A stretch of DNA of 64,000 bases. Source: Algibacter sp. L1A34. Its GTDB lineage: Bacteria; Bacteroidota; Bacteroidia; Flavobacteriales; Flavobacteriaceae. A program made the translations under genes and the position numbers. This document shows positions 30,619-51,471 of the stretch, piece after piece. Each line of letters starts with the position of its first letter. Position 1 is the stretch's first letter. The notes below the pieces were generated by a model. The model ran no database searches and was not told the origin of the DNA. It saw only the letters and a program-made list of their open reading frames with translations. Where the stretch lies: NCBI RefSeq assembly GCF_009796805.1, contig NZ_CP047029.1:2428501-2492500 (forward strand), given 5' to 3'.

Positions 30619-31208
30619 ATGAATTTTATTGACTTATTTTCAGGTGCAGGTGGACTTTCCGAAGGCTTTATAAAAGCTGGGTTCAATCCTATTGCTCATG
30701 TTGAGATAGACTCTCATGCTTGTAATACTTTAGAAACCAGATTAGTTTATCACAAACTAAAAAACGAAAATAATCTAGACCATTACAACGATTACCTAAA
30801 CGAGAAATTTTCACGTGAAAACTTCATATCTAAATTTGGCGATAAATCTTTATCAGATACTATTTTAAATATTGGTATTGGAGGCAAAAATAATGACCAT
30901 ATTTTCAAGAAAATTGATGACTTGGCTGGAAATAACGAAATTGATTTAGTTATTGGCGGACCACCTTGTCAAGCATATTCATTAGTTGGAAGAGCTAGAG
31001 ATGAAAAAGGAATGAAAGATGACCCTAGAAATTTCCTTTATAAAGAATATGCTAAATTTTTAAAAAACTATAGACCAAAAGCATTTGTTTTTGAAAATGT
31101 ATTAGGTCTTATTTCGGCTGAAAAAGGTTTGTATTTTAAAAACATGCAAAAATATTTTCGCTCTATTGGTTATAATTTAGATTATAAAATTCAACACTCA
31201 GAAGATTT
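30619..31208 (+). pseudogene. C5-cytosine DNA methyltransferase, truncated by IS3-family element
   Basis: The N-terminal part of a Dcm-type enzyme is present: SAM motif DLFSGAGGLSEGF near residue 4, the catalytic Pro-Cys in GGPPCQAYS near 115, and the ENV motif near 158. The gene then runs into the IS end at 31209. The target recognition domain and C-terminal motifs IX-X are missing, so it cannot be active as it stands. The lost half is not found on the other side of the IS, where cassette-array DNA begins. No cognate restriction gene remains. Confidence 0.9.
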
Positions 31209-31242
31209 TGAAGTGCACCCAAATGTTTAGACAAATTTATAA

Positions 31243-32025
31243 TTAATTTTGATAATAATTAGCTCGATATTCAATCGGGCTCATACCATTTAAATTTTGT
31301 TTAATTCTCTCATTATTATAATATTTTATATAGACTTTAATCTCTTTTTTTAACTGAGATATCGACTTATATTTATTTATATAAAACAATTCAGATTTTA
31401 GAATACCGAAGAAATTTTCTATCACAGCGTTATCTAAACAATTTCCTTTACGAGACATACTCTGAGTAATTCCTTTTTCTGTTAATAATCTTCGATACTG
31501 TTTCATTTGATACTGCCATCCTTGATCTGAATGTAATATTAAATTTGTTTGATCTGGTATTTTCTTAAAAGACTTTTTCAGCATAATAGCTACTTGTTTA
31601 AAATCAGGTTTTTCAGATAATTGATAACTTATTATTTCTCTATTAAAGAGATCAATTATTGGAGATAGATATAGTTTTTTTCCTAAAACTTTAAATTCTG
31701 TAATATCGGTAGCCCATTTTTTATTTGGCCTAATAGCTTTAAAATTTCGTTGTAATATATTAGGAGCTGTTTCTCCTATTCGCCCTTTATAAGACTTGTA
31801 TCTTTTAGCTCTGACTAAACTTTTTAAACCTAATTCACGCATTAACTTGAGTACTGTTTTATGATTTATTAGAGTGCCTATTTTGTTGATTTCTAAAGAG
31901 ATTCTTCTATAGCCATATCTTCCTTTGTGACGATGATATATTTGATGAATCAATAGTTTTATCTCTTTATATTTATCAACTAAAAGACTTCTTTTATGAT
32001 GATAATAATAACTACTTCTTGCCAT
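31243..32025 (-). CDS. IS3-family transposase OrfB (DDE integrase core)
   Basis: A DDE transposase with an rve-type core: WATDITEF carries the first Asp, LILHSDQGWQYQ the second, and DNAVIENFFGILKSE the Glu, all intact. An HTH_21-like N-terminus (IYHRHKGRYGYRRI) precedes the core. The ATG at 32025 is internal to a longer open frame. That frame reads upstream through KAKAITELRHKYDLDIL and joins orfA by a -1 shift at a CTTTTTG (plus strand, ~32088) run, so the active product is probably an OrfAB fusion. Confidence 0.93.
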   Translation of the reverse strand: MARSSYYYHHKRSLLVDKYKEIKLLIHQIYHRHKGRYGYRRISLEINKIGTLINHKTVLKLMRELGLKSLVRAKRYKSYKGRIGETAPNILQRNFKAIRPNKKWATDITEFKVLGKKLYLSPIIDLFNREIISYQLSEKPDFKQVAIMLKKSFKKIPDQTNLILHSDQGWQYQMKQYRRLLTEKGITQSMSRKGNCLDNAVIENFFGILKSELFYINKYKSISQLKKEIKVYIKYYNNERIKQNLNGMSPIEYRANYYQN

Positions 32026-33388: not shown

Positions 33389-33410
33389 TTAGATTTCGTC
33401 TGTCTTAAAT

Positions 33411-33547
33411 TACTGCCAACGTTTACGTATAAGAATAGTGCGTAGTTTGTGTGCGAGGATTTTCCGAAGGAAAATCAGATGCAAGCAAACGCGCATTAAC
33501 TCTTGGTTAGGCACTAAACTAAGCATTATTTTTATACAATGTTAGCA
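33411..33547. repeat. attC-like site 1
   Basis: R''-like TACTGCCAAC is followed by outer arm GTATAAGAATAGTGCG, inner hairpin GATTTTCC-GAA-GGAAAATC, outer arm GCATTATTTTTATAC and GTTAGC. The outer arms pair with G.T wobbles on the plus strand. Confidence 0.88.
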
Positions 33548-33815
33548 TGCGTGTTTATTTTTGTCGGACTTATTTTACGAAATAGTTGCGTTTAATTTTT
33601 TAGAACCTCGAATTTTTTGAGCATGAGTAAAGTCAGTTGCTCGTTAACTTTGCGTAATGTTTGTTAAAAGTCAGATGTTTTTGCGCAAGAGTAAAGTCAG
33701 TCGCACGCAACAGTTGCGTTTTGAATGGTCAGAAGTCGGTTGAGTGAGATTTTAAGGAATCTATTTTAAACTACTTTTGAGTGATTTTTATTTTCCAGAG
33801 CTGAGTGAGACATGA
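33548..33815. other. Cassette B: ORF-less cassette
   Basis: The unit is bounded by GTTAGCAT (33541) and ATGCTAAC (33816-33823). No ORF of note is present. It contains repeated GAGTAAAGTCAGT motifs, a short perfect palindrome GCAACAGTTGC (33707) and a GTCGGTTGAGTGAG block, all shared with the units at 37.3, 39.9 and 44.0 kb. It may encode a structured RNA or be a decayed gene. Confidence 0.65.
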
Positions 33816-33948
33816 ATGCTAACGTTTATGTATAAGATTAGTTGCGGGTTTGTATGCGAGGGTTTTCCGAAGGAAAATCAGACGTTACTAACATGCAAAT
33901 ACCTTTGATTAAGCACTAAACCGCAATTATTTTTATACGGTGTTGTAA
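33816..33948. repeat. attC-like site 2
   Basis: R'' ATGCTAAC, outer arms GTATAAGATTAGTTGCGG / CCGCAATTATTTTTATAC, inner hairpin TTTTCC-GAA-GGAAAA, R' GTTGTA. This sequence class recurs at sites 11, 17 and 19. Confidence 0.88.
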
Positions 33949-34122
33949 ATAGTGATTTCTATACCATTTTAACTTATAAATCTCCATATTTATTTCATGA
34001 TGTTTTTCATTTTTAGATTTAAAAGTTACATTTTTATTCATGTTACGAGTAGTATATAATAAGTAACTTTCTTATGATTTTGTATAGAAAAGCATAAAAA
34101 AAAAGTTGTTTTAAAATGTTTT

Positions 34123-35103
34123 TTAAATTTCTTTGTTTAGGTCACTAATATCTTTAGAATTAATATTGTAAGATGTTTTTGAAGTTTTTCTAAATATTAT
34201 GTTCCCAGTTTTACCATTAATAACTGATATAATTTTATTTTCATTTACCTGAGTATGCATTAAATAGTAAAAATTTTCTTTCGAATTTAATATTTTATTA
34301 TTTAAATCTTCATTAGAAATTAGAGCATAATTATGATTATATTTCGAAAAATATTTTTCAGGTTTCTCTATTTTTTTAATTGTAGATGAAAAAGGGTCAT
34401 ACCTTTTCATCATCCAATGAGGAGCAAATAAAGTTGATTTTTTTAAATTTTTAATTTCATGTTTATCAATATAGAGGTCTCTCAATTTAGCATTAATATT
34501 TTTGTCTAAATGACTGTTTAAAAATTGAAAATAATTTTTAATATACCCTAACTCGAAATTGTAAAAACCTGCAATTTCTTTATTTTTTTTCTGCTTTTTC
34601 TTAATTATAGCTTTCTCAAGTATAGATTTTCTGTTAGAAGAATTGGTTATAACCTCCCTCTTTTTAATGTTTGGAGTGAAAAATATTTGGGCGACTGCAT
34701 TACTTTGACTTGGAGTAAAAAGACTAAAATTAAATATAATATATTCTTTTACTGTTTTATCAGGAACAGCACTATCGAATGTTACTTTGTCTTTGCGTCC
34801 TTCTTTATTTATTAATTTAATAATTACATTCTTGGAGAACTTATTATAATCAAAATTATCTTCGGAAATGAACTCAATATCATTTATTGTCCAAACATTA
34901 TTAATTATTTGCTTGAAACTATTTTCATCTAATTCATTGGGAATTACAAATATTGTTTTTGAATTTTTAATTTCATCAAATACATCTTGTTTTAATTCAG
35001 AAACGTAAATGTTTGCCCATGATTTACTTATTCCGATATTTACTTGTCCATAAGAACTTAACGCTAATAGTATTAGTAAAAAAGCGAGATTGTGTTTTTT
35101 CAT
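34123..35103 (-). CDS. Cassette C: exported protein, 326 aa
   Basis: A signal peptide is clear (MKKHNLAFLLILLALSSYGQ). The mature protein is mixed alpha/beta and basic in the middle (KKREVITNSSNRKS, KKKQKKNKE). Near the C-terminus IISVINGKTGNIIFRK looks like a short beta repeat. I do not recognise the family. It is the largest coding cassette on the minus strand. The start is 117 bp from the cassette end, farther than in its neighbours, leaving room for its own promoter. Confidence 0.75.
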   Translation of the reverse strand: MKKHNLAFLLILLALSSYGQVNIGISKSWANIYVSELKQDVFDEIKNSKTIFVIPNELDENSFKQIINNVWTINDIEFISEDNFDYNKFSKNVIIKLINKEGRKDKVTFDSAVPDKTVKEYIIFNFSLFTPSQSNAVAQIFFTPNIKKREVITNSSNRKSILEKAIIKKKQKKNKEIAGFYNFELGYIKNYFQFLNSHLDKNINAKLRDLYIDKHEIKNLKKSTLFAPHWMMKRYDPFSSTIKKIEKPEKYFSKYNHNYALISNEDLNNKILNSKENFYYLMHTQVNENKIISVINGKTGNIIFRKTSKTSYNINSKDISDLNKEI

Positions 35104-35389
35104 ATTTTTTTATTTAATCTTTAAAGGATATTTAGAGGTTACAAGCTTAATGAAAAGTATGAGATTTTTGAATTCACTCATTCCATAACATCTTCTTCAT
35201 TTTTTAGCATTATTTACAACGTGATTGTGTATGGTTAGTTGCGTGGTTAAGCAACTAAGTTAGCAAACTTTTACGAACCCGTGAATATTCCGCAGGAATA
35301 TTCGCAAGTAGAGAATAATACAGCCATTAATTATACACGTCTTAAGTTAGCATTTTAATAAAAACACTAAATTAAGGCCTAAAAATAAG

Positions 35390-35545
35390 AAAGCACAAAA
35401 GAGAGGAGTAAGGTTAATATACACGCAGAAGCTTTAGACTTCGTCAACATTGAAAATCCCCTCTCTTTTCTACACAGATTTCGTACAGTTCTATGAGGCT
35501 TTTAGACCTCGATTTTAAGTCGTTGAAACTCGCGTAGATCGTCCT
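35390..35545 (+). ncRNA. Candidate IS110 bridge RNA, copy 1
   Basis: A 10-bp stem AAAAGAGAGG / CCTCTCTTTT (35397-35406, 35460-35469) encloses a loop with AATATACACG (35416), the sequence left of the insertion point in the attC-like targets, and CAACA (35445), complementary to TGTTG on the right side. A second stem-loop (35487-35530) contains TTTTAAGT, similar to the IS left end CTTAAGT. This is the target-loop and donor-loop layout known for IS110 bridge RNAs; the RNA itself is inferred. Confidence 0.6.
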
Positions 35546-35564
35546 TTCAAAAAAACATTTTCTT

Positions 35565-36536
35565 ATGAATAAAGATATTAAATATTTTGGAATAGACATT
35601 AGTCATTTGGTGTTCGATGTCACGGACTCTGATGGTAATTACTATCAGTTTAAAAACAATGAACTTGGCTTTAAAAAGTTCACGAAACTTTTAAATAATA
35701 AGAGTCATTGCGTTATGGAAGCCACAGGCTATTATCATTATCAGTTAGCGTATCATTTGCTAGAATCTGGTATCAAAGTATCGGTTGAAAATCCATTGTC
35801 AGTAAAACGCTTTATACAGATGGGACTATCAAAAGTTAAGACAGATAAGAGCGATTCAAAACTTATTTGTGCTTACTCAGAGCAAGTAGAATTAAAGCTA
35901 TGGAAAGGAAATTCTAAGGAAGAAATAGAATGTCTTCAAATCGTTAGAACCCTTTCTGTATATACAAAACAAAGCACTATGCTAAAAAACAAACTACATG
36001 GAGAAGCGGTTTTGGGAAATCCAAGTAAGCTTGTTGTAACGTCTTTAAAACGTAGTTTAAGACAACTAACAAAAGAGATGAAAACTTTGGAGGATAAGCT
36101 GTTAATATTAGTAAAACAATCACATCAAGATTTATTTACCCGTTTAAAAACCATTCCAGGTATAGGACCAAAAATAGCCATTATGTTAGTGGTATTAACA
36201 GGTGGATTTGATCGTTTTACGAGCGCAAGTGAACTTTGTAGTTACGCTGGCCTTACACCTATGATCCGGCAAAGTGGAAGTAGTGTAAAAGGGAGGCCAC
36301 GAATAAGTAAAATGGGGAATCAAAAGCTTCGGAATTTATTATTTATGTGCAGTTTTAATGCGTGTAAATACAACAAAGCTTGCCGCGATCTTTATGAGCG
36401 AATCGTAGCGAAAGGAAAGAGCAAAAAATTAGCATTAATTGCCGTGTGTAATAAGCTACTAAAACAGGCTTTTGCACTAGCTAAATCAGGATTAATATAT
36501 GATGGAAACTATAAAAGTACTTTAGTGAAAAATTAA
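35565..36536 (+). CDS. IS110-family transposase, copy 1, 323 aa
   Basis: The N-terminal RuvC-like DEDD domain starts YFGIDISHLVFDV and includes CVMEATGYYH and the later KTDKSDSKLI. The C-terminal IS116/IS110/IS902 domain has TIPGIGPKIA, CSYAGLTP and the QSGSSVKGRPRISKMGN segment with the catalytic serine region. Length is slightly below the family norm but nothing appears missing. It differs from copy 2 by one residue (Ile for Thr in GPKxAIM). Confidence 0.95.
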   Translation: MNKDIKYFGIDISHLVFDVTDSDGNYYQFKNNELGFKKFTKLLNNKSHCVMEATGYYHYQLAYHLLESGIKVSVENPLSVKRFIQMGLSKVKTDKSDSKLICAYSEQVELKLWKGNSKEEIECLQIVRTLSVYTKQSTMLKNKLHGEAVLGNPSKLVVTSLKRSLRQLTKEMKTLEDKLLILVKQSHQDLFTRLKTIPGIGPKIAIMLVVLTGGFDRFTSASELCSYAGLTPMIRQSGSSVKGRPRISKMGNQKLRNLLFMCSFNACKYNKACRDLYERIVAKGKSKKLALIAVCNKLLKQAFALAKSGLIYDGNYKSTLVKN

Positions 36537-36587
36537 TACATTTTTACTTGTTTTTTACCACAGTACTTTGTTGGCAAATCGTATTTT

Positions 36588-37145
36588 TTAGTCTACCCAA
36601 CCTTGATAGTCTATTGTTTTCAGCGTGTCATTCTCAAAAGTAAAAATGAAAACAGATGTGTTCTCTAAATCTCCAATTTTGACTAAATCAGTTTCTAATT
36701 CCGATTTTAATATATTTTCAAGAGTTTTTTTATTAACTCCAATTTTGATAAATTCTAAAAACTTAAATTCCGAACTTCTTATTTTCGCAGCATAAATCCA
36801 TTCTTTGTCTTTAGCTCGATAAGAGTAAATTTTTGTTTTGTCAAATGTCTGTGTTTTAACAGTATCAGTTATTGTTTCGTTATGTGTATTTATTCTTGGT
36901 TCAGTTTTTAAATCAAACTTTGGGTTTAGAGCAAGTTTTTCCAAATCAGATTCCAGTAGAATTCGTAAACTATCGTTTTCAAAATATTGTTCAGGAATAG
37001 GAATTTCCTCAACTATTTTTTCCGTTTCTGCTTTTAATTCAGTTGTTGGTTTTTGTTCGTGAATTTCAATCTTTTGAGTTTCTTTTTGTTTGCAAGAAAT
37101 CAATAAAATTAGAATTCCGATTGAAGTTAGTAAGTGTCTTTTCAT
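36588..37145 (-). CDS. Cassette D: lipoprotein, 185 aa
   Basis: A lipoprotein signal ends in LLISC, followed by a Lys/Glu/Thr-rich linker to about residue 60. The C-terminal half (FDKTKIYSYRAKDKEWIYA, ENTSVFIFTFENDTLKTIDY) looks like a small beta-rich domain. The family is not recognised. The start is 12 bp from the R'' end (37157), and the cassette's other end lies beyond the IS110 element. Confidence 0.75.
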   Translation of the reverse strand: MKRHLLTSIGILILLISCKQKETQKIEIHEQKPTTELKAETEKIVEEIPIPEQYFENDSLRILLESDLEKLALNPKFDLKTEPRINTHNETITDTVKTQTFDKTKIYSYRAKDKEWIYAAKIRSSEFKFLEFIKIGVNKKTLENILKSELETDLVKIGDLENTSVFIFTFENDTLKTIDYQGWVD

Positions 37146-37148
37146 ATG

Positions 37149-37287
37149 TTTGCCAACGTTTACGTATAAGAATAGTGCGTAGTTTGTGTGCGAGGATTTT
37201 CCGAAGGAAAATCAGATGCATGCAAACACGCATTTAGTCTTGATTAGGCACTAAATTACGCATTATTTTTATACAATGTTAGCGCAC
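37149..37287. repeat. attC-like site 4
   Basis: R'' TTTGCCAAC, outer arms GTATAAGAATAGTGCG / CGCATTATTTTTATAC, inner hairpin GATTTTCC-GAA-GGAAAATC, R' GTTAGCGCAC. Class of site 1. Confidence 0.88.
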
Positions 37288-37607
37288 GTTGTTATGTTTT
37301 TCTCACAAGAGTATTTAAATATGATTTTTTCACGCAACAAAGAAAAGTCCGAAGCAACAGTTTCGTATTGTTTGGCAAGAGTCAGAATTTTTTAAACACA
37401 AGAGTTAAGTCAGTTGCGCGTAAACTTTACGTATTGCTTTGTCAGAAGTCGGTTTAATTTTTTATTTAATTTTAGTTTGCGAGAGTAAAATCAGACTTAG
37501 GTAACAGTTGCGTTTTGATTTGACAAAAATCAATTGAGTAAGTTTTAGTAATTGTTTTTAAAATACTTTGAGAAGGTTTATTGTTTTTTTTGAGCTGAGT
37601 GAGCAAT
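37288..37607. other. Cassette E: ORF-less cassette
   Basis: Bounded by GTTAGCGCAC (37278) and its exact complement GTGCGCTAAC (37608). It shares with cassette B the GAGTTAAGTCAGTTGCGCG-like repeats, AACAGTTGCGTTTTGA and the terminal GAGCTGAGTGAG block. The short palindrome is degenerate here (GTAACAGTTGC at 37501). No ORF is convincing on either strand. Confidence 0.65.
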
Positions 37608-37745
37608 GTGCGCTAACGTTTACGTATAAGAATAGTGCGGTTTTGTGTGCGAGGATTTTCCGAAGGAAAATCAGACGTAACAAAAGTGCACTAACCTTTG
37701 ATTAAGCAACTAATTTAGCATTATTTTTATACATTGTTGGCAATA
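37608..37745. repeat. attC-like site 5
   Basis: R'' GTGCGCTAAC, outer arms GTATAAGAATAGTGCGG / GCATTATTTTTATAC, inner hairpin GATTTTCC-GAA-GGAAAATC, R' GTTGGCAATA. Confidence 0.88.
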
Positions 37746-37750
37746 GTTTT

Positions 37751-38359
37751 TTAATCCGAAATAACATCTCTTAATTCCAAAATATCTTCTCTAACTTTTT
37801 TGTCTTTTACCAAATTTAATGCCTTATTATTATACTTGTTGGAATTATTAAAATCATTCATTTTGTAATAAACATTAGCTATGTTGTAAAAAAAATATCC
37901 TTTTCGTTCAGAGTCCTGTTCATAATTCAATCCACTATTGTAAATAGCAATTGCTTTGTCAAATTCCTTATCCTTATTCAAAGCAACTCCATAATTCAAG
38001 TAAGTAAGTGAATATGTACTATCAATTTTAAGTGATTTTTCAAAATATTCAGAAGACTTTTTAAATTGAGATAATTCCGCTGTTTCATTTCCTAAAGCGT
38101 TAAGTATTATTTTATTATTTGGTTCGATAATATTTGCCTTTTTATATAAACTTTTAGCTTTTAAATGGTCGTTTTTTGCGCTTTTAGCAGATGCTAGGTC
38201 AAAAGTCAGAGAAGCGATTGAGTCTTTGATTTCGCCACTTTTAAATAGGTTCAAATAGTAGATTTCTGAATCTCCAGAATTTTTAGAAATTATTTTGTCA
38301 GTTTCGGTTTTGCAACTCAAAAATGTCAGAATTATAAATGCTAAGATTAGGTTTCTCAT
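37751..38359 (-). CDS. Cassette F: TPR-repeat lipoprotein, 202 aa
   Basis: I use the ATG at 38359; a TTG four codons earlier lies within the cassette end itself. The lipobox TFLSC follows a short hydrophobic core. About three tetratricopeptide repeats are visible: ALGNETAELSQFKKSSEYFE, LNYGVALNKDKEFDKAIAIY and YNIANVYYKMNDFNNSNKY. Such proteins act as docking modules. A paralogue with a frameshift lies in the cassette at 48.2-48.8 kb, so the same gene type entered the array twice or was duplicated and diverged. Confidence 0.82.
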   Translation of the reverse strand: MRNLILAFIILTFLSCKTETDKIISKNSGDSEIYYLNLFKSGEIKDSIASLTFDLASAKSAKNDHLKAKSLYKKANIIEPNNKIILNALGNETAELSQFKKSSEYFEKSLKIDSTYSLTYLNYGVALNKDKEFDKAIAIYNSGLNYEQDSERKGYFFYNIANVYYKMNDFNNSNKYNNKALNLVKDKKVREDILELRDVISD

Positions 38360-38362
38360 AAT

Positions 38363-38503
38363 TATTGCCAACGGTTACGTATAAGAATAGTGCGTAGTTT
38401 GAGTGCGAGGATTTTCCGAAGGAAAATCAGATGCAAGCTAACAAGCACTAACTTTAGATTGAGGAATAAACTTACGCATTATTTTTATACATTGTTGGCA
38501 TTT
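38363..38503. repeat. attC-like site 6
   Basis: R'' TATTGCCAAC, outer arms GTATAAGAATAGTGCG / CGCATTATTTTTATAC, inner hairpin GATTTTCC-GAA-GGAAAATC, R' GTTGGCATTT. Confidence 0.88.
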
Positions 38504-38509
38504 CGTTTT

Positions 38510-39028
38510 TTATTCTTTTTTTAAACTCCAATCTAAATCAAAATATTTCATTGTCGAATTCACATAGTTTTCAGGAACATATTTTGAAACATAGTTTTTA
38601 AAATATCTTTCCCTAAATCCTAATGCAAAAGAGTCTACAGATTGGTTTTCATAGAATTCAAAAGGTTTTACATTCGGAATTTTAATCCATTTCGAATTAG
38701 ATTTTCCGTTTATTAAATTCACCATTTTGAATGAATCCTTTTTTTGTTCCACTTGAAATTTCAGAGTGTCAATTATCTTTCGGTTAGAGAAAGGGTCTCT
38801 CAAATATTGAATCAGTGTGTCAGATTTGAATTCATAAGATGATAAATAGCTCAATCCACTTTGATAAACAACCACGAATCCTGTGTCAGTTATATGAGCT
38901 TCGTAGTATCTTTCTTTTTCCGTTGAGTCCAAATTGTACCAAACTCCGTTTAATTCAGATGTTCTCTTTTTAGAGCACCCAATTATGAGTGAAATCAGAA
39001 TTAGTAAATATGTTTGCGGTTTTGTCAT
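38510..39028 (-). CDS. Cassette G: lipoprotein, 172 aa
   Basis: The frame is open into the attC-like repeat, but MTKPQTYL at 39028 is the right start because it gives a lipoprotein signal with lipobox LIIGC directly after the cassette boundary. The mature part contains NGVWYNLDSTEKERYYEAHI, suggestive of a small beta-barrel or lipocalin-like start, and ends in an aromatic-rich helix (YFKNYVSKYVPENYV). Function is unknown. Confidence 0.75.
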   Translation of the reverse strand: MTKPQTYLLILISLIIGCSKKRTSELNGVWYNLDSTEKERYYEAHITDTGFVVVYQSGLSYLSSYEFKSDTLIQYLRDPFSNRKIIDTLKFQVEQKKDSFKMVNLINGKSNSKWIKIPNVKPFEFYENQSVDSFALGFRERYFKNYVSKYVPENYVNSTMKYFDLDWSLKKE

Positions 39029-39033
39029 AAATG

Positions 39034-39171
39034 AATGCCAACGTTTATGTATATGGAAAGTTGCGTGTTTGTGTGCGAGGATTTTCCGAAGGAAAATCAG
39101 ACGTAACAAACGTGCAACGACCTTTTGATTTAGCTAAAAATAGCAATTTTTTATATACGGTGTTACCTACA
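39034..39171. repeat. attC-like site 7
   Basis: R'' AATGCCAAC, outer arms GTATATGGAAAGTTGC / GCAATTTTTTATATAC (three G.T wobbles on the plus strand), inner hairpin GATTTTCC-GAA-GGAAAATC, R' GTTACCTACA. Confidence 0.88.
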
Positions 39172-39177
39172 GTATTT

Positions 39178-39753
39178 TTAATTCAGATTCGTGTATATTA
39201 AATCCAAGAATAATTTCCGATACATTATTTTTTGAAATTTATCTTCTGGAATTTTATTCAGCGCGTCAATTAAATATTCGCTATCAGTTTTTAAATCTCC
39301 GTAAGCCTCAAATTTGTTATAAGCTAATCCAAATTCAAATTGCCAACTTGACTTGTCTAAAATTTTTAGTTGTTCAAATAAATAACCATAGCAAGATAAA
39401 TGGGAATTAATCGGAAATAACAAATATGGGTCAAATCCTAAATCCGATTTAAGTTTCTCAAAAAACTCAGGCTCTATTTCTTTGCGACTTGCCTTTTTTA
39501 ATAATTCCGTATATCCGTTTTTGCTTATTTCAATCAGATATTTTTCTTGAATTAGTGAATTTTCTAATAAACTATGAATATTTTGTTTGTAAATCAGCTT
39601 TCCCTCAATCGGTCCAACTTCCGTAACGAGTCGATTATATTTGATTTCAGAGCATAATTCAAACTTTTCGTCCGCAATTAGGTCAGTCGTATTTTTAGTT
39701 GAACCACAAGCTGTGATTAAAGTCAGAATTATTATTTGAAGCAGTTTTTTCAA
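39178..39753 (-). CDS. Cassette H: lipoprotein, 191 aa, TTG start
   Basis: The signal MKKLLQIIILTLITAC ends in a lipobox. The start codon must be TTG, because no in-frame ATG exists between it and the attC-like repeat; the TTG lies 13 bp from the cassette end. The mature part is helical and acidic (LLENSLIQEKYLIEIS, KLKSDLGFDPYLLFP), with no recognised domain. The compact fit to the cassette end is typical of integron genes. Confidence 0.72.
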   Translation of the reverse strand: MKKLLQIIILTLITACGSTKNTTDLIADEKFELCSEIKYNRLVTEVGPIEGKLIYKQNIHSLLENSLIQEKYLIEISKNGYTELLKKASRKEIEPEFFEKLKSDLGFDPYLLFPINSHLSCYGYLFEQLKILDKSSWQFEFGLAYNKFEAYGDLKTDSEYLIDALNKIPEDKFQKIMYRKLFLDLIYTNLN

Positions 39754-39756
39754 TAT

Positions 39757-39895
39757 TGTAGGTAACGTTGCATGTATGGAAAGTTGCGTTTTCGAGTGCG
39801 AGGATTTTCCGCAGGAAAATCAGCCGCTATCGAAAAAAGCACTAACCAAAGTGTTTGCCTAAAATAGCAATTTTTTATACATATTGTTAGCGTGC
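39757..39895. repeat. attC-like site 8
   Basis: R'' TGTAGGTAAC, outer arms TGTATGGAAAGTTGC / GCAATTTTTTATACA, inner hairpin GATTTTCC-GCA-GGAAAATC, R' GTTAGCGTGC. Confidence 0.85.
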
Positions 39896-40219
39896 GTTTA
39901 CATATTTCACAAAAATACTTATCCGTTCTTGTTAAGTAATTTTTAAAACGTCCAGAAATTCAATCCGCCGTACAAGTTGCGCTTTGCTTTGATCAGAAAT
40001 TATAGATTTAGCTTTGCCGTGTAGAAAGTTAGTCCACCGCAACAGTTGCGTATTTAATGGTCAGAAATCGGTTGAGTGAGTTGTCCGTTGCGTAATCTAT
40101 TAAACATCTGTTTTCGCTTCGATTCCAAGAGCTAATAGTTCTTTAATTTTTTTGTTAAAATTAAATTTTTGCGAAAGAAAATAGGGGATAAGGAATTGCT
40201 TTTCAGAGTAGAGTGGAAT
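39896..40219. other. Cassette I: ORF-less cassette
   Basis: Bounded by GTTAGCGTGC (39886) and GCACGCTAA(T) (40220); the last base of the R'' box is T instead of C. It contains the extended palindrome CGCAACAGTTGCG (40038-40050) followed by ATGGTCAGAAATCGG and TTGAGTGAG, as in cassette B. The remaining sequence is diverged. No ORF is convincing. Confidence 0.65.
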
Positions 40220-40356
40220 GCACGCTAATGTTGTTGTATAAGCTTTGTTGCGTGGTTTAAGCAGTTAATTTAGTAAATAAAACACGAACGGCGAAATTCC
40301 GGAGGAATTTCCCAAGTGAGCCAAAACTAGCAATAAAGTTTATACGGTGTTAGCCA
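40220..40356. repeat. attC-like site 9
   Basis: R'' GCACGCTAAT (variant), outer arms TGTATAAGCTTTGTTGC / GCAATAAAGTTTATAC, inner hairpin GAAATTCC-GGA-GGAATTTC, R' GTTAGCCA. The changed AAC box may weaken this site. Confidence 0.82.
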
Positions 40357-40901
40357 TTGGCTTTTTCCGTTTCTATTTTATGTCCGATTTCAATTAAGAA
40401 TTCACGCATTAATTCATAAGTTTTGAAATCAGCATTGATATGATTAAACAATTCAGTTTCCATATATTCACAGCTTAAACAAATATTCAATTGTTGAACA
40501 AGATTTTCATTTTTGTCATAAAATAAAATTGCATCTCGATAAATTGGCGCACACATCCAATTCGGAATATCTTTTATTTCTGTTTTCAGAATCTCAATCA
40601 AGCGTTTTGATTTAGAATCTGTTTTTTCAATTCGGTTTATCTTTTCTGCTGAAAAATGAAATTGTCCTTTTTTATTGATAATTACTTGAGTGAAATTCAA
40701 TAATTCATTTAATTCAGACAAGCGATTTTTCTGCGTTTCATTTCCGCCATTTTTGGATTTTATATTAGCAAATTCAGATTCTAAAGATTTTATTTTTTCC
40801 TCAAACTTTTCTCCTCGCTGAAGAGAATAAGTTTCAAAGTATTCAAAATCTATATTTTCAATAAATTCCGATGATTTTTTATATGTGTAGTTCGGTTTCA
40901 T
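40350..40901 (-). CDS. Cassette J: hypothetical soluble protein, 183 aa
   Basis: No signal peptide or membrane segment. The N-terminal half is a charged helical region (EKFEEKIKSLESEFANIKS), and the C-terminal half has a CxxC motif in LNICLSCEYM and a conserved-looking WMCAPIYRDA. The stop codon TAA lies inside the cassette end itself (GGCTAAC), and the start is 7 bp before the other pairing box, so the gene fills its cassette completely. The family is not recognised. Confidence 0.7.
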   Translation of the reverse strand: MKPNYTYKKSSEFIENIDFEYFETYSLQRGEKFEEKIKSLESEFANIKSKNGGNETQKNRLSELNELLNFTQVIINKKGQFHFSAEKINRIEKTDSKSKRLIEILKTEIKDIPNWMCAPIYRDAILFYDKNENLVQQLNICLSCEYMETELFNHINADFKTYELMREFLIEIGHKIETEKANG

Positions 40902-40907
40902 TGCTTG

Positions 40908-41044
40908 TGGCTAACGGTCACGGCTATGGTTTCGTTGCGCGAAACATAGACGGTTTTTTTGTTAAGGCACTAAGATAGTAAAAATGGGAGGAATTTTCCA
41001 GCGGAAAATTCCAGCGCAATGAACTATAGGCAATGTTAGCGACA
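40908..41044. repeat. attC-like site 10 (divergent)
   Basis: R'' TGGCTAAC, outer arms CTATGGTTTCGTTGCGC / GCGCAATGAACTATAG with one unpaired T and G.T wobbles, inner hairpin GAATTTTCC-AGC-GGAAAATTC, R' GTTAGCGACA. Sequence differs from the other classes but the fold is the same. Confidence 0.82.
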
Positions 41045-41382
41045 GTTTATTGATTTAAGAATCAGAGAATCACGTTCAGCTTATCAGTCCGACATTGTTA
41101 AGCTGATTGACTGCGACAATCTCTAAGGCTCTAATTTGGCGGATTAGAAACAAGTCCAGCGTAATAGTTGGGTATTATAACTCCAGATTGGCCGTTCAGC
41201 TTGTCAGTCCGACGCAGTAGAGTAGGTGAGCGAGGCAGATCACTACGGAACTGAATTTGGCTGATGAGAAACGAGTCCGACGTCAAAGTTGTTTTTTAGG
41301 AGTTGAGTTTTTTGTTTTATTTGGCTTAAAATTCTAAAAAAAATCGCGAGAAAAGAAGCTGGCAAAAATTTGCGAAGTGGAT
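41045..41382. other. Cassette K: ORF-less cassette with internal repeats
   Basis: Bounded by GTTAGCGACA (41035) and TGTCGCTAAC (41383), a 10-bp perfect complement. Two imperfect ~90-bp direct repeats (41073-41162 and 41193-41283) each start CGTTCAGCTT and contain CAGTCCGAC and later GAAACxAGTCC. No ORF is convincing on either strand. A structured RNA is possible. Confidence 0.65.
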
Positions 41383-41519
41383 TGTCGCTAACGTTTATGT
41401 ATAAGAATAGTTGCGGGTTTGTATGCGAGGAATTTCCGAAGGAAATTCAGACGTTACAAACACGCAACGACCTTTGATTAAGCACTAAACCGCAATTATT
41501 TTTATACGGTGTTGCCATT
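41383..41519. repeat. attC-like site 11
   Basis: R'' TGTCGCTAAC, outer arms GTATAAGAATAGTTGCGG / CCGCAATTATTTTTATAC, inner hairpin GAATTTCC-GAA-GGAAATTC. The hairpin has base-pair changes that keep the stem (A-T for T-A). R' GTTGCCATT. Confidence 0.88.
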
Positions 41520-41682
41520 TCGTTGTTTTTCAGAGTTCAAATTATCCGATTAAACTCCGTTTTCCACTTTTCAGCGATTGAGTAAATTCATTCAGCGTTT
41601 TATTCCGCAATATTTTCAATTCCGAAACTAGCTAAATTCTACTCAAAATTCATTCAGCGTTTGAGCGATAATACAGTGTCTT

Positions 41683-41871
41683 TTATTCAGCCGTTTGCTT
41701 TTTATTCCTGAAAATTTTAAAAATTAATGAAGCATTAATAATAAATGCAGGAATTATAAAAACATCTTTAACTGTGTTTATTCCCAGAACGTCATATTGT
41801 AAAAATATCATCGAAAGGAAAATAATAATTGTCGAAATTATTAATCCAGTTTTTATGTAATTCATATTCAA
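41683..41871 (-). CDS. Cassette L: small membrane protein, 62 aa (duplicated)
   Basis: Two hydrophobic helices (GLIISTIIIFLSMIFL and DVFIIPAFIINASLIF) and a basic tail. The identical protein is encoded at 49088-49276, and the whole ~490-bp cassette is repeated there with only a few base changes. The cassette has non-coding flanks of ~170 bp on the 3' side and ~120 bp on the 5' side, so it may also hold a promoter. Function is unknown; small two-helix proteins include toxins, but no partner is visible. Confidence 0.7.
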   Translation of the reverse strand: MNMNYIKTGLIISTIIIFLSMIFLQYDVLGINTVKDVFIIPAFIINASLIFKIFRNKKQTAE

Positions 41872-42166
41872 TTTGTTTTAGTTAGATTTTCGTAAAGTTA
41901 TTCAATTCAGTTTTTTATTCAACGTTTTATTTGTCAAAAATTAGCTTTTTCTAAATTCAGATTTCCCTTTTCGAGTGCGTTACGCAATGAATGGCAACGT
42001 GTTTGTGTATGGTTAGTTGCGTGGTTAAGCAACTAAGTTAGTAAACTTTAACGAACCCGTGAATATTCCGCAGGAATATTCGCAAGTAAGCTCAATGAAG
42101 CAATTAAATATACACGGCTTAAGTTAGCATTTTAATAAAAACACTAAATTAAGGCCTAAAAATAAG

Positions 42167-42322
42167 AAAGCACAAAAGAGAGGAGTAAGGTTAATATACA
42201 CGCAGAAGCTTTAGACTTCGTCAACATTGAAAATCCCCTCTCTTTTCTACACAGATTTCGTACAGTTCTATGAGGCTTTTAGACCTCGATTTTAAGTCGT
42301 TGAAACTCGCGTAGATCGTCCT
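42167..42322 (+). ncRNA. Candidate IS110 bridge RNA, copy 2
   Basis: Same sequence as the copy 1 candidate. The loop sequence AATATACACG (42193) is identical over 10 bases to the target just left of this insertion (AATATACACG in 42108-42117), a longer match than at copy 1. CAACA at 42222 can pair with TGTTG on the right. Inferred from position and fold. Confidence 0.6.
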
Positions 42323-42341
42323 TTCAAAAAAACATTTTCTT

Positions 42342-43313
42342 ATGAATAAAGATATTAAATATTTTGGAATAGACATTAGTCATTTGGTGTTCGATGTCAC
42401 GGACTCTGATGGTAATTACTATCAGTTTAAAAACAATGAACTTGGCTTTAAAAAGTTCACGAAACTTTTAAATAATAAGAGTCATTGCGTTATGGAAGCC
42501 ACAGGCTATTATCATTATCAGTTAGCGTATCATTTGCTAGAATCTGGTATCAAAGTATCGGTTGAAAATCCATTGTCAGTAAAACGCTTTATACAGATGG
42601 GACTATCAAAAGTTAAGACAGATAAGAGCGATTCAAAACTTATTTGTGCTTACTCAGAGCAAGTAGAATTAAAGCTATGGAAAGGAAATTCTAAGGAAGA
42701 AATAGAATGTCTTCAAATCGTTAGAACCCTTTCTGTATATACAAAACAAAGCACTATGCTAAAAAACAAACTACATGGAGAAGCGGTTTTGGGAAATCCA
42801 AGTAAGCTTGTTGTAACGTCTTTAAAACGTAGTTTAAGACAACTAACAAAAGAGATGAAAACTTTGGAGGATAAGCTGTTAATATTAGTAAAACAATCAC
42901 ATCAAGATTTATTTACCCGTTTAAAAACCATTCCAGGTATAGGACCAAAAACAGCCATTATGTTAGTGGTATTAACAGGTGGATTTGATCGTTTTACGAG
43001 CGCAAGTGAACTTTGTAGTTACGCTGGCCTTACACCTATGATCCGGCAAAGTGGAAGTAGTGTAAAAGGGAGGCCACGAATAAGTAAAATGGGGAATCAA
43101 AAGCTTCGGAATTTATTATTTATGTGCAGTTTTAATGCGTGTAAATACAACAAAGCTTGCCGCGATCTTTATGAGCGAATCGTAGCGAAAGGAAAGAGCA
43201 AAAAATTAGCATTAATTGCCGTGTGTAATAAGCTACTAAAACAGGCTTTTGCACTAGCTAAATCAGGATTAATATATGATGGAAACTATAAAAGTACTTT
43301 AGTGAAAAATTAA
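42342..43313 (+). CDS. IS110-family transposase, copy 2, 323 aa
   Basis: Same protein as copy 1 except Thr in GPKTAIM, which is the more usual residue in this helix-hairpin-helix segment of the family. DEDD N-terminal and serine-containing C-terminal domains are intact. The gene begins 224 bp from the left end of the element. Confidence 0.95.
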   Translation: MNKDIKYFGIDISHLVFDVTDSDGNYYQFKNNELGFKKFTKLLNNKSHCVMEATGYYHYQLAYHLLESGIKVSVENPLSVKRFIQMGLSKVKTDKSDSKLICAYSEQVELKLWKGNSKEEIECLQIVRTLSVYTKQSTMLKNKLHGEAVLGNPSKLVVTSLKRSLRQLTKEMKTLEDKLLILVKQSHQDLFTRLKTIPGIGPKTAIMLVVLTGGFDRFTSASELCSYAGLTPMIRQSGSSVKGRPRISKMGNQKLRNLLFMCSFNACKYNKACRDLYERIVAKGKSKKLALIAVCNKLLKQAFALAKSGLIYDGNYKSTLVKN

Positions 43314-43362
43314 TACATTTTTACTTGTTTTTTACCACAGTACTTTGTTGTACGTAGTGTTT

Positions 43363-43827
43363 TTAAAATCCATCAAATACTTTGTCAACAGCATCACTTA
43401 TAACTTTTTCTTGACTTATCATATTTATATAGGTTTTATCCGATTTCAATTTTAATGTTTTTTCTATATTCGAAAAGCTCCAATCATAAGTTCCGCTAAA
43501 AATTTTATTTGTCAATTCAGATTCAGAGTTTGAGTGATTAGAGTTAATTTTCAATTTCCCTTTATCAAAAGTGAATTCTGTTTTTAATTTCTCTGATTCA
43601 AATCCAGGAAGAGTTATAGTTGAGTCAGCAACTTTAAAAGTCAAACTTTCAGAGTTTTCATATCCAGCATAAATAATTCGGATTGTTTGATTCAGAGTTT
43701 TTGGAAATACACTTTTTCCATCATAAGTCATTTCAGTTATAATCCAATTCCCATCCAGTTCGATTTGATTATTCGTATCACACGATAAAAAAGTCAAAAT
43801 CATTAATATAAGAATGAAGTTTCTCAT
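43363..43827 (-). CDS. Cassette M: lipocalin-like lipoprotein, 154 aa
   Basis: I use the ATG at 43827 (MRNFILIL) rather than an upstream GTG. The lipobox TFLSC follows the hydrophobic core. The mature start IELDGNWIITEMTYDGKSVFP resembles small lipocalin-like proteins of Bacteroidota, in which a GxW motif opens the barrel; later strands alternate hydrophobic residues (SLTFKVADSTITL, LKTEFTFDKGKLKI). Ligand and role are unknown. Confidence 0.75.
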   Translation of the reverse strand: MRNFILILMILTFLSCDTNNQIELDGNWIITEMTYDGKSVFPKTLNQTIRIIYAGYENSESLTFKVADSTITLPGFESEKLKTEFTFDKGKLKINSNHSNSESELTNKIFSGTYDWSFSNIEKTLKLKSDKTYINMISQEKVISDAVDKVFDGF

Positions 43828-43848
43828 TTGGTTCACATTACGTACAAC

Positions 43849-43976
43849 GGTTACGTATAAGAATAGTGCGTAGTTTGTGTGCGAGGATTTTCCGAAGGAA
43901 AATCAGATGCAACCAAACGCGCATTTACTCTTGGTTAGGTACTAAACTAAGCATTATTTTTATACAATGTTGGCAT
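43849..43976. repeat. attC-like site 13
   Basis: R'' TACGTACAAC, outer arms GTATAAGAATAGTGCG / GCATTATTTTTATAC, inner hairpin GATTTTCC-GAA-GGAAAATC, R' GTTGGCAT. Class of site 1. Confidence 0.88.
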
Positions 43977-44231
43977 GCGTGTTTTTTTTGTTGGACTTAT
44001 TTTACGACAGATATGCGTTTGAATTTAGAAAAGTGAGAGTTTTTTTGAGCATGAGTAAAGTCAGTCGCGCGTAATCTTTGAGTTTCGTTTGTCAAAAGTC
44101 AGATGTTTTGCGCAAGAGTAAAGTCAGTCGTAAGCAACAGTTGCGCTTTAAATGGTCAGAAGTCGGTTGAGTGAGTTTTTTAACAACTTTTAAGCTCGTT
44201 TATATATTTTTTTGAGCTGAGTGAGACATGA
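43977..44231. other. Cassette N: ORF-less cassette, close relative of cassette B
   Basis: Bounded by GTTGGCAT (43969) and ATGCCAAC (44232). The body follows cassette B closely (CGTG, TTGGACTTATTTTACGA, GAGCATGAGTAAAGTCAG, GCAACAGTTGC at 44134, GTCAGAAGTCGGTTGAG). The end boxes differ from B at one base, and both ends changed together (GTTAGC/GCTAAC against GTTGGC/GCCAAC). Confidence 0.7.
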
Positions 44232-44369
44232 ATGCCAACGTGATTGTGTATGGTTAGTTGCGTGATTTAAGGAACTAAGTTAGCAAATAAATCACAGATA
44301 GAATATTCCGCAGGAATGTTCGTAAGTAGGCTTAAAATAAGCAATTAATTATACACGGTGTTGTGGTGT
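44232..44369. repeat. attC-like site 14
   Basis: R'' ATGCCAAC, outer arms GTGTATGGTTAGTTGC / GCAATTAATTATACAC (three G.T wobbles), inner hairpin GAATATTCC-GCA-GGAATGTTC, R' GTTGTGGTG. Confidence 0.88.
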
Positions 44370-44387
44370 CGTTTTTTATTACTTCTA

Positions 44388-44945
44388 TTAATAATCAAAT
44401 TTATACGAATTAGTTGTATGTCCTTTTTTCCAATTTTTAAATTCAACGTTCACAATTACTTCTTGTGTTCCGTGAATTTTTTCTTTAAAATCAAAGTTTT
44501 CTTGATATGAAATTCCATATTTATTTAGGACTTCATCAATTTTGTTTTTTTCCAATTCCGCTTTTTTATATTCTCCTCTATATTTATTCAGTTTAGAGTA
44601 AGCAGCTGCCAGAAATGAAAATCCAGCTGCAATCATTCCAATTTTCACATACCATAAATACAAGCTAAATATTTTCCAGTCAGATAAAAAGTACCCAAGA
44701 AGTATTAAAAGAAAACCAATAATTATTGTGCCGTAAAAAGTCAGATGTGTTGACTTTTGGTTTCTGCGGATTATTTCCAATTCGAGATTTGCAATTTCTA
44801 ATTTTTCTTGAAATTTTTTGTCAAGTGTAATTTTTGAGCAAATATTATTAAAATCAGGTCTTTTATTGGTCAAATTACAAGTCAATCCTTTTTCAAGACT
44901 CGTTATTTGGTTTTCGCATAAATCACAATGTCGTGAAAAATTCAT
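44388..44945 (-). CDS. Cassette O: zinc-ribbon membrane protein, 185 aa
   Basis: The N-terminus has a Cys cluster (CDLCENQ near 8-11, C23, C36) typical of a small zinc ribbon. A helical segment leads to two membrane helices (FYGTIIIGFLLILLGYFL and VKIGMIAAGFSFLAAAY), then a charged coiled coil (YKKAELEKNKIDEVLNKYG). The C-terminus is beta-rich. The family is not recognised. The start is ~58 bp from the pairing box. Confidence 0.72.
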   Translation of the reverse strand: MNFSRHCDLCENQITSLEKGLTCNLTNKRPDFNNICSKITLDKKFQEKLEIANLELEIIRRNQKSTHLTFYGTIIIGFLLILLGYFLSDWKIFSLYLWYVKIGMIAAGFSFLAAAYSKLNKYRGEYKKAELEKNKIDEVLNKYGISYQENFDFKEKIHGTQEVIVNVEFKNWKKGHTTNSYKFDY

Positions 44946-45002
44946 TAAAATGTCAGTTCGGTTTTAGTCAGTTTTTGATTCCAGCGTTCGTTTTGGTAAA
45001 TG

Positions 45003-45142
45003 CACCACAACGTTTATGTATATAATTCAGTAAGGAATTTAAAATTAACTGATTTTCAGATGTTTAACTGTCTTTTTTAAACGCGCGATTTACTCAAATT
45101 GATTACTTAACTCCTTATTGATTATATACTGTGTTGTATGTC
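45003..45142. repeat. attC-like site 15 (divergent, no central TTCC hairpin)
   Basis: R'' CACCACAAC, outer arms GTATATAATTCAGTAAGGA / TCCTTATTGATTATATAC with one unpaired T, R' GTTGTATG. The usual TTCC/GGAA hairpin is absent, but the outer stem is among the longest in the array. Confidence 0.78.
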
Positions 45143-45205
45143 AGGTGTTTTTATTTTCAGATTGTAAGTTAATTCTTTTTTATAACTTGTTCAAAAATAT
45201 AATTT

Positions 45206-45580: not shown

Positions 45581-45701
45581 AGAGTATAACTGAAATTACT
45601 ATAAATATTGGTATAGCTATATCTGTTATTTTTCCAATTAATACCATTCTCTTTTCTGTTCGTTCTTCCTTTTCTATAAACTGTTTTAATTCTTCTGTCA
45701 T
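45567..45701 (-). CDS. Possible small membrane protein, 44 aa
   Basis: An ORF from ATG at 45701 encodes a charged start (MTEELKQFIEKEERTEKR) and one hydrophobic helix (ITDIAIPIFIVISVIL). It converges with the plus-strand gene and overlaps its end. It has the orientation of most cassette genes. The ribosome site is weak, so expression is uncertain. Confidence 0.4.
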   Translation of the reverse strand: MTEELKQFIEKEERTEKRMVLIGKITDIAIPIFIVISVILSIYL

Positions 45702-45851
45702 ATTCTTATTTCATTTCGTGCGTTATATGCCGCACAGTTAGTAATTCCGATTGAGTGAGCTTTTCACGTACTACTTGTCAGTCATACGTAACAGTTGCGT
45801 TGTGCTTTGGTCAGTCAGATTTTTATTATATTAGTAAAAAATATATTTTCA

Positions 45852-46666: not shown

Positions 46667-46669
46667 TTT

Positions 46670-47260: not shown

Positions 47261-47269
47261 TCTCAAATT

Positions 47270-47406: not shown

Positions 47407-47410
47407 GTTT

Positions 47411-48004: not shown

Positions 48005-48017
48005 TGGTCTGTCAAAT

Positions 48018-49276: not shown

Positions 49277-49394
49277 TTTGTTTTAGTTAGATTTTCGTAA
49301 AGTTATTCAATTCAGTTTTTTATTCAACGTTTTATTTGTCAAAAATTAGCTTTTTCTAAATTCAGCTTTCCCTTTTCGAGTGCGTTACGCAATG

Positions 49395-49533
49395 AATGGC
49401 AACGTGATTGTGTATGGTTAGTTGCGTGGTTAAGCAACTAATTTAGTAAATAAATCACAGATAGAATATTCCGCAGGAATGTTCGTAAGTCGGCAGTGAA
49501 CCAAGCAATTAATTATACACGGTGTTACCAACT
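49395..49533. repeat. attC-like site 20 (closest to the recombinase)
   Basis: R'' AATGGCAAC, outer arms GTGTATGGTTAGTTGC / GCAATTAATTATACAC, inner hairpin GAATATTCC-GCA-GGAATGTTC, R' GTTACCAAC. Confidence 0.88.
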
Positions 49534-50183: not shown

Positions 50184-50343
50184 TTGGTAACGTATTTTTC
50201 TTAAAATTCAGAAAGCGATAAATTCGGATTCGGAACAGGTTTTTGCTTTTCACGAACCACATTGTTGGTAACAATTGTATATAGTTAGTACTAACTATAT
50301 ATCTATTATATGTAGTACTAACTATATATCTATTATATGCGCA
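50184..50343. other. Candidate attI region with tandem 27-bp repeat
   Basis: The region lies between the first cassette and the recombinase stop. A 27-bp unit starting TAGTACTAACTATATATC occurs twice in perfect tandem (50286-50312, 50313-50339). TTGGTAAC occurs at the cassette boundary (50184-50191) and again at 50265-50272 inside a short palindrome. There is no hairpin of the attC-like type. Direct repeats beside an insertion point resemble the accessory recombinase sites of attI. Confidence 0.65.
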
Positions 50344-51471
50344 CTAAGATAGTAAATCTTTAATTTCTGTAAAGGAACTTGTAGCAACATGTGTATAAAT
50401 TTCTGTAGTTTTAGTAGAGTTATGTCCTAAAAGTAATTGAATGTAGCGAATATCTGTACCACTTTCCAGTAAATGCGTGGCAAAACTATGTCTTAACATA
50501 TGGGGAGTAACTCTTTGTTTAATACCTGCATTTTTGGCAGATTTAACAACAATTTGTAATACACTAGAGCTACTGTATGGATTGCCAGGAATGGGATTTT
50601 CAAACAAATATGTTTTAGGTCTGTAAATTTTAAAATACGTTCTCATGTCTTCCAGAACACTTTTGTTGAGAACTGTATAGCGGTCTTTATTACCTTTAGC
50701 TTGTTCAACTCTAATAACCATTCTTTTACTATCAATGTCTTTTATTTTTAATTGTAAGAGTTCATTTCTTCGTAAGCCAGAAGAGTACAATAAGCTTATA
50801 ATACATTTATGTTTTATGTTGTTCGTAAAGTTAATTATTGTAATTATTTCTTCTTTCGATAATACTTTTGGCAATTTAGATTCTTTTCTAGGTCTTTCAA
50901 TAGAGTAGAACCGGTTAGGCATTCCTAAAACCATTTCGTAATAAAATTTAATAGCATTGATAGACATATTAATATATGAATTAGACTTGTCTTCTTTAAT
51001 TAGTTTTTGAAGATAGAGCCTAATATCATTTTCGTTAATACTAAATAATTCCCTTTGTTTATAATGATTAATAAATTTCTCAAAACTATGAACATAGTTT
51101 TTTACTGTGCTATTCGAATATTTTTTTAGTTCTAATTTTTGTAGAAATTCATCAGGACATGTTCTAAAATTTTTTTTTATAGATCGTTCTCTAAACCAAG
51201 ATACATCCGTAGTTTTGTTATCACTATTAAGTTTTCTGTCTTTAAAAAAGTAGTTGCAATTAACCCAGGCAACACCCTTAAATTTTTCAAAAACCAAACT
51301 GACATTAGATTTGTTGTTTAGAATATATACCATATTAAACTCTTTACTCCATTTAGGGTTTGGTAATTCTTTAATTAGAGCTTGAATGACTTTATCTGAG
51401 TTGAATTGTAAGCCAATACATTGTTTTTCTTTAATAAAAAGATGTTTCAATGTGATATGTTTATTTAGCAT
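50344..51471 (-). CDS. Xer/IntI-like tyrosine recombinase at the array end, 375 aa
   Basis: This is probably the recombinase that moves the cassettes. A ~100-residue N-terminal extension is followed by a SAM-like core-binding domain (~103-190). The catalytic domain has R234 (SGLRRNEL), K259 (QAKGNKDR), H324 and R327 (PHMLRHSF), H350 (LLGHNS) and nucleophile Y359 (TEIYTHV). Only ~58 residues separate GNKDR from PHMLRH, against about 100 in IntI1, so the extra IntI segment that clamps unpaired attC bases is missing. It reads in the same direction as the cassettes. A plain Xer-type integrase of the island is the alternative. Confidence 0.88.
   Translation of the reverse strand: MLNKHITLKHLFIKEKQCIGLQFNSDKVIQALIKELPNPKWSKEFNMVYILNNKSNVSLVFEKFKGVAWVNCNYFFKDRKLNSDNKTTDVSWFRERSIKKNFRTCPDEFLQKLELKKYSNSTVKNYVHSFEKFINHYKQRELFSINENDIRLYLQKLIKEDKSNSYINMSINAIKFYYEMVLGMPNRFYSIERPRKESKLPKVLSKEEIITIINFTNNIKHKCIISLLYSSGLRRNELLQLKIKDIDSKRMVIRVEQAKGNKDRYTVLNKSVLEDMRTYFKIYRPKTYLFENPIPGNPYSSSSVLQIVVKSAKNAGIKQRVTPHMLRHSFATHLLESGTDIRYIQLLLGHNSTKTTEIYTHVATSSFTEIKDLLS

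Follow-up and report, generated by a model that had tools for sequence, protein, structure and literature searches.

An IS110-type element with a candidate bridge RNA at attC-like cassette ends in Algibacter sp. L1A34

A stretch of 64,000 nucleotides from the genome of Algibacter sp. L1A34 (NZ_CP047029.1, positions 2,428,501 to 2,492,500; hereafter the window) carries two copies of an IS110 element, each of which splits a repeat resembling the attC site of an integron. What leads the element to these repeats? Bridge RNAs of IS110 elements, and their covariation with targets, are already known (PMC11208160). The initial annotation of the window, made from its letters only, had proposed such a programmable guide in the 5′ non-coding DNA of the element. 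We find that RNA-guided insertion at cassette ends through a bridge RNA is very probably the best explanation.

Seven full copies of the element, with a mutual identity of 99-100%, are present in the genome, five of them outside the window, and their different flanks define the element ends. The recombinase of copy 1 scores 198 bits against NF033542 (IS110 family RNA-guided transposase; cut-off of 140), and the solved ISCro4 and IS621 proteins are close relatives that align with it over almost the full length. The non-coding DNA amounts to 224 nt upstream of the gene versus about 32 nt downstream. The DEDD recombinase, the long left non-coding end and the putative target and donor loops with their guides place the element in the IS110 group. 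For comparison, relatives were sampled at 109 loci, the named ones being mostly from Flavobacteriaceae. In two of them, L074 and L085, the right end of the element abuts its left end, as is expected of a tandem derived from a circle.

The 5′ non-coding DNA looks like an IS110-type bridge RNA (Table 1). The outer stem of the target loop (9 pairs), its inner hairpin and the donor hairpin (4 pairs each) keep every one of their pairs in 73-75 of 75 distinct sequences, which were taken from 90 parsed relatives and counted without control for shared ancestry. Several stem pairs vary in a compensatory manner, an example being an outer pair with AU in 67 sequences, CG in 3, UA in 3 and GU in 2. A weak helix of 2 pairs in the consensus, kept in 61 and 73 of the 75, is not counted as support. 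Searches with Rfam 15, at the gathering threshold on the window and permissively on the element, gave no relevant match; since the presence of an IS110 bridge-RNA model in Rfam 15 is not established, this result has no deciding power. On ten relatives with unusual guides, Rfam returned tRNA only.

The initial annotation had described a stem (AAAAGAGAGG/CCTCTCTTTT) with AATATACACG and CAACA in its loop, the first identical to the left target of copy 2 (10/10) and the second complementary to the TGTTG right of both insertions, and all of this is found at the positions given. It had also described a second stem-loop with TTTTAAGT near the left end of the element, as the donor loop. Both the loop and TTTTAAGT are present, but the latter would act as a complement of the left end and not as a copy of it, and the left donor guide, ACAGTTCT against ACAGTACT, had been overlooked. 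The 5-nt match of the right donor guide is weak because CTTAAG is palindromic, and we do not claim it as independent evidence. As for chance, when the non-coding region was shuffled by dinucleotides 5000 times, 36 of the shuffles gave an equally long match to the 21-nt left flank of copy 2. The 10-nt identity is by itself just moderately unlikely, and the weight rests on the copies at the same site, the occupancy of repeat subtypes and the covariation in relatives.

All seven genome copies lie at the same point of one repeat subtype. Their left flanks end in TATACACG followed by G in four copies and by T in three, while the right flanks all start with TGTT; the uninterrupted pattern TATACACGNTGTTR occurs 15 times in the genome, 14 times with G. 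Among the repeats that match the guide at positions 3-10, 7 of 21 are occupied, compared with none of the 45 that do not match (Fisher, 1.5e-4). The test takes in 66 of 70 repeats, since in four the profile match ends before the right end. It should be noted that the scan for repeats covered the window with its neighbouring DNA and, for the other IS copies, the regions surrounding them. As these regions were picked around IS copies, the occupied share is no genome-wide rate, and it is the contrast between subtypes within the arrays that counts. The GTT arm read by the right guide is common to all repeats, so that it is mainly the left guide that separates the subtypes.

The common site might instead go back to one ancestral insertion, the copies owing their spread to shuffling or duplication of cassettes. 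A cassette duplication is indeed found in the window (41387-42117 / 48792-49522), and cassettes are mobile in principle. We regard this origin as very improbable: the seven copies differ in repeat bodies, right-hand arms and genes, the paralogue of the copy 2 cassette is empty, and in distant relatives the guides fit other sites.

The covariation of guides and targets was followed in the relatives. For the left guide, 93 elements were used (90 of the 109 were parsed automatically, another 4 were read manually from the 19 that had failed, and the tandem junction L085 was excluded). At positions 2-10, the identity between guide and left flank is 76.1% versus 62.0% for shuffled pairs (73 distinct pairs; shuffle maximum of 67.3%; 0/10,000), and with one pair per distinct guide (34 pairs) it is 74.5% versus 56.3% (0/10,000). 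Positions 7 (86% versus 33% expected) and 8 (92% versus 59%) give the clearest signal, and shifting the guide against the flank by 1-3 lowers the identity for all shifts. The left guide equals the element's own left flank in L051 (ACTATAGCCG), L044 (ATTAACCG) and L132 (TATATGCA), while in genome G021 the guide TCTACCG goes with three copies at TCTACCA. An extra reading of guides and flanks covered 31 loci (20 new and 11 earlier ones; guide unread in L184, left flank unread in L201 and L187). L044, L045, L187 and L188 have guides TTAACCG or TTAAGCA and TGTTTTTAT on the right side; this is possibly another repeated target and no cassette end.

Right guides, read in 94 relatives (2 of them without a right end), are nearly invariant because GTT is part of every cassette end. 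Three switches are matched by the target: CACCA/TGGTG in L079 (5/5), AAACA/TGTTT in L045 (5/5) and GAACT/AGTTA in L062 (4/5). In L079, both target arms are switched together. In genome G393, whose guide is AAACA, TGTTTTTAT stands after all three copies read. The switched-guide site of L079, from Zobellia, lies at positions 1240-1295 and 2505-2560. It presumably resembles domain V of a group II intron, which we take as a lead only; the only Rfam match for this site is to group-II-D1D4-1, upstream and below threshold (21.3 bits against a gathering threshold of 35), and protein evidence was lacking.

On the donor side, the base before CAG/TAG is the same in the donor guide and the element right end in 87 of 88 relatives (51 A, 36 T), the exception, L067, being a misread end. 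The 88 are from the 90 parsed relatives; the right end of L067 was misread in the parsing of both left and donor guides, and a better rule was used for the right guides. The proposed fit to the target and donor loops of a bridge RNA is thus strengthened by the conserved stems, the covarying guides and the donor-guide agreement. The comparison across relatives that the initial annotation had suggested likewise goes its way, in that insertion sites follow guides, except for L115, L140, L133 and L134 on the left and L071 and L091 on the right.

These exceptions are among several observations that weigh against guidance by a bridge RNA. The left guide fits poorly in L115 (4/10) and in L117, L119, L121, L129, L133, L134 and L140 (5/10 each); in L117, L119, L121 and L129, the run AACCG is common to guide and flank. 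L071 and L091 have replaced right guides (3/5 and 2/5 matches), yet are located before TGTTG/TGTTA, and the right target of L053 is TTTTG. Related elements, moreover, are not independent samples, for which the occupancy test within the genome serves as the control. The crossover poses a further difficulty. IS621 has an identical CT core in target and donor (PMC11208160), whereas here the target has G-T at the crossover against T-C at the joined ends, and a core dinucleotide common to the two could not be assigned. Furthermore, among 93 elements the base at the left junction is T 53 times, G 26 times, A 8 times and C 6 times, while right junctions keep T; in the genome of the window, T is found at the left junction in 3 of 7 occupied versus none of 15 empty sites. 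This base between the left target and CTTAAG (35340, 42117), T in 53/93, is G (14/15) or C in the empty sites here, which may be an effect of strand exchange or repair.

Could the recombinase protein or the hairpin shape of the attC-like sites set the target, with loop matches that are coincidental or left over from past recombination? Most of the targets are folded cassette ends, the first descriptions of IS1111 elements at attC had them aimed at such folded ends, and a chance match of 10 nt is, from the shuffles above, not very rare. However, the other repeat subtypes of the same arrays share the overall fold and are never occupied, in relatives the flanks track the guide at individual positions, and both arms switch in L079; we consider such targeting exceedingly improbable. 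That the element is a dead remnant whose RNA and target matches are non-working fossils is no easier to believe: several relatives have stops or are truncated, but the seven copies are nearly identical, the five scored have open frames, and the seven different cassette sites of the copies point to recent movement.

Guidance by a bridge RNA, then, is the reading that we prefer, on the basis of the complementarity, the site preference within the genome, the covariation and the conserved stems. Transcription of the 5′ non-coding region would yield a bridge RNA that has two loops, one binding the target and one the donor. Through the donor loop, the recombinase would recognise the joined element ends after excision, and through the target loop TATACACG(G) followed by TGTTR; strand exchange would proceed through a circle. 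Since this target is found at one end of a single subtype of cassette-end repeat, insertion would take place in a single orientation, with the TATACACG box on one side of the element and the GTT arm on the other. On the strand of the cassette genes, the IS would enter the repeat beside its gene-side arm, at a distance from the GTT that meets attI. Over evolution, guides would change and insertion sites follow, mostly among repeat subtypes and sometimes to different DNA.

Are the target repeats really cassette ends? In an integron, the two ends of a cassette are complementary, so that the right arm of an attC pairs with the left arm of the next attC and not with its own. A profile search found 70 copies of the repeat, of about 125-130 bp, in three arrays with one orientation per array. 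The arms of neighbouring repeats are complementary at a mean of 4.9 of 6 positions (42 of 60 pairs are perfect; 0/10,000 shuffles reach the sum), compared with 2.2 of 6 for the arms of the same repeat (61 repeats). Among the 92 of 109 relatives' loci with a readable right arm, 48 have an exact 9-nt partner downstream, versus 1.3 expected from shuffled arms. These counts support the view that the repeats behave as integron-type cassette ends, and from the pairing in the array and in relatives the IS110 clade lives largely in such ends. Calling the repeats integron-like is thus supported, although their nature as cassette ends and the five further IS copies had been overlooked; the suggestion that a programmable guide explains their targeting holds up as well, given that insertion sites follow guides in relatives and that only guide-matching repeats are occupied here. 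The window also contains duplicated cassettes, namely 41387-42117 / 48792-49522 (95.9% identity; the IS is in just one of the repeats) and 33417-33846 / 43845-44262 (86%).

Table 1. Positions of the features discussed, in window coordinates unless stated otherwise.
Feature	Position	Strand	Remarks
IS110 element copy 1, CTTAAGTTAG ... ACAGTACTT	35341..36568	+	ends from 7 genome copies with different flanks
IS110 element copy 2	42118..43345	+	99% identity to copy 1; junctions read
IS110 DEDD recombinase copy 1, 323 aa	35565..36536	+	Pfam DEDD_Tnp_IS110 and Transposase_20, above cut-off
IS110 recombinase copy 2, 323 aa	42342..43313	+	Pfam DEDD_Tnp_IS110 and Transposase_20
Long left-end non-coding region, candidate bridge RNA	35341..35564	+	two conserved guide-bearing stem-loops, compensatory stem changes
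Target-binding loop and closing stem	35397..35469	+	stem 35397-35406 AAAAGAGAGG / 35460-35469 CCTCTCTTTT
Inner hairpin of target loop	35428-35431 / 35439-35442	+	pairs kept in relatives
Donor-loop hairpin GAGG...CCTC	35495..35510	+	pairs intact in 73-75/75; GC/AU exchange at one pair
Left target guide AATATACACG	35416..35425	+	covaries with left flank in relatives
Right target guide CAACA	35445..35449	+	complement of TGTTG; switches with target in L079, L045, L062
Left donor guide ACAGTTCT	35485..35492	+	7/8 match to element right end ACAGTACT
Putative right donor guide TTTTAAGT	35513..35520	+	reverse complement has CTTAA in common with left end CTTAAGTT
Left target of copy 1, ATTATACACG	35330..35339	+	9/10 identical to left guide
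Left target of copy 2, AATATACACG	42107..42116	+	10/10 identical to left guide
Right target of copy 1, TGTTG	36569..36573	+	complement of CAACA
Right target of copy 2, TGTTG	43346..43350	+	complement of CAACA
Target sequence of element			TATACACGGTGTTG
attC-like repeat split by copy 1	35217..35339	+	profile match; right arm after IS GTTGGCAAA, exact partner TTTGCCAAC at next repeat
attC-like repeat split by copy 2	41993..42117	+	profile match; right arm after IS and next left arm 6/6 complementary
Empty paralogue of copy 2 repeat, natural empty site TATACACGGTGTTA	49392..49526	+	48792-49522 95.9% identical to 41387-42117
Other repeats			TATATACG repeat, TTTTATACG repeat
Repeat arrays	33400-50343; G000:C1 3.904-3.943 Mb; G000:C1 4.288-4.332 Mb		first array in window
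Xer-like tyrosine recombinase, candidate cassette integrase	50344..51471	-	Phage_integrase; NF040815 above cut-off, TIGR02249 (integron integrase) below
attI-like site	50264..50343	-	first cassette arm and palindromes abutting integrase stop; layout recurs in 20/31 loci

What could have assembled these arrays? The candidate integrase beside the array in the window (50344-51471) is closest to XerA-type proteins, and its residues 1-105 form an N-terminal part without a Pfam match. One paper defines IntI by an additional domain (PMC9668308), which is not found in this protein: 20 residues stand against 61 in VchIntI4. The arginine spacing is 92-93 in 27 of 31 integrase loci (L146, L147 and L155-L183; 4 were unread by the motif) versus 135 in 2a3v, as counted from the alignment. 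In the Algibacter genome itself, no integrase scores above the TIGR02249 cut-off. An arm at the integrase stop pairs with the far end of the first cassette in 20 of the 31 loci, by position only, and at the 5′ side in none of 31; five of the eleven misses have a flank of less than 400 nt. By position alone, the integrase gene and the putative attI-like site are thus adjacent to the array as in an integron. The second array has another integrase of this kind, with 44% identity, at a distance of about 1.4 kb. A frame at 30619-32025, on the left edge of the window's array, matches part of a C-5 cytosine methylase and adjoins an rve-type transposase gene; it is possibly a broken gene. Elsewhere in the window, a 195-bp direct repeat (13841-14035 / 16792-16986, 94% identical) has its second copy within a Fic-domain gene (16782-17900).

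According to one survey, integrons are very scarce in Bacteroidetes (PMC9024848), and a review lists Bacteroidota among the integron-bearing phyla (PMC8618304). We see about even chances for the broader proposal that Flavobacteriaceae harbour a widespread integron-like cassette capture by a Xer-like recombinase without the IntI domain, together with its own clade of RNA-guided IS110 parasites, whose guides follow the subtypes of the cassette ends. If true, cassette capture would have arisen here independently, or else the system would descend from a stage at which IntI had yet to gain its extra helix. Integron finders keyed on the IntI domain would miss such arrays, as the recombinase is Xer-like and lacks it. 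In the literature covered (titles and abstract openings, with most subscription journals outside the coverage), neither such arrays nor an IS110 element at attC is recognised in Flavobacteriaceae. What appears new here is an IS110-type clade in this family guided to attC-like cassette ends, and still more novel, perhaps, are the arrays beside Xer-like integrases that lack the IntI-specific domain. Bridge RNAs have been studied mainly for programmable recombination, and the clade offers a natural series of re-aimed guides; since dozens of near-identical target copies occur in one genome, mismatch tolerance can be read from nature. Cassette arrays with non-IntI integrases, in turn, make a question of integron evolution testable in culturable marine bacteria.

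Taken together, the locus can be compared with three known systems. Like integrons (PMC9668308, PMC9024848), the arrays consist of small cassettes with complementary end arms that meet at GTT, with an integrase at one end and an attI-like site that carries the arm of the first cassette. They differ from integrons in that the integrase has no IntI domain, that the array follows the 3′ end of the integrase gene and reads in the same direction, and that the arms are complementary over about 9 nt. With IS621 and the IS110 group (PMC11208160), the element shares the IS110 recombinase, a long left non-coding end in which a target loop precedes a donor loop, a left guide that reads as the left target, a right guide that complements the right target, and natural covariation of guide and target. 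It differs in that a cassette end is targeted, where IS621 targets a REP element, and in its core bases, as far as the junctions show. Finally, the IS1111 elements ISKpn4, ISPst6 and ISPa25 aim at attC by a downstream guide RNA (PMC11187229), and the present element resembles them in combining a DEDD recombinase with a putative guide RNA aimed at one end of a cassette recombination site. Here, however, the guide lies upstream, the element is of IS110 type, and the host family is Flavobacteriaceae, with attC-like arrays that lack a recognisable IntI. The element thus appears to work like these IS1111 elements without belonging to their group, which would extend attC-like targeting to IS110-type besides IS1111-type elements.
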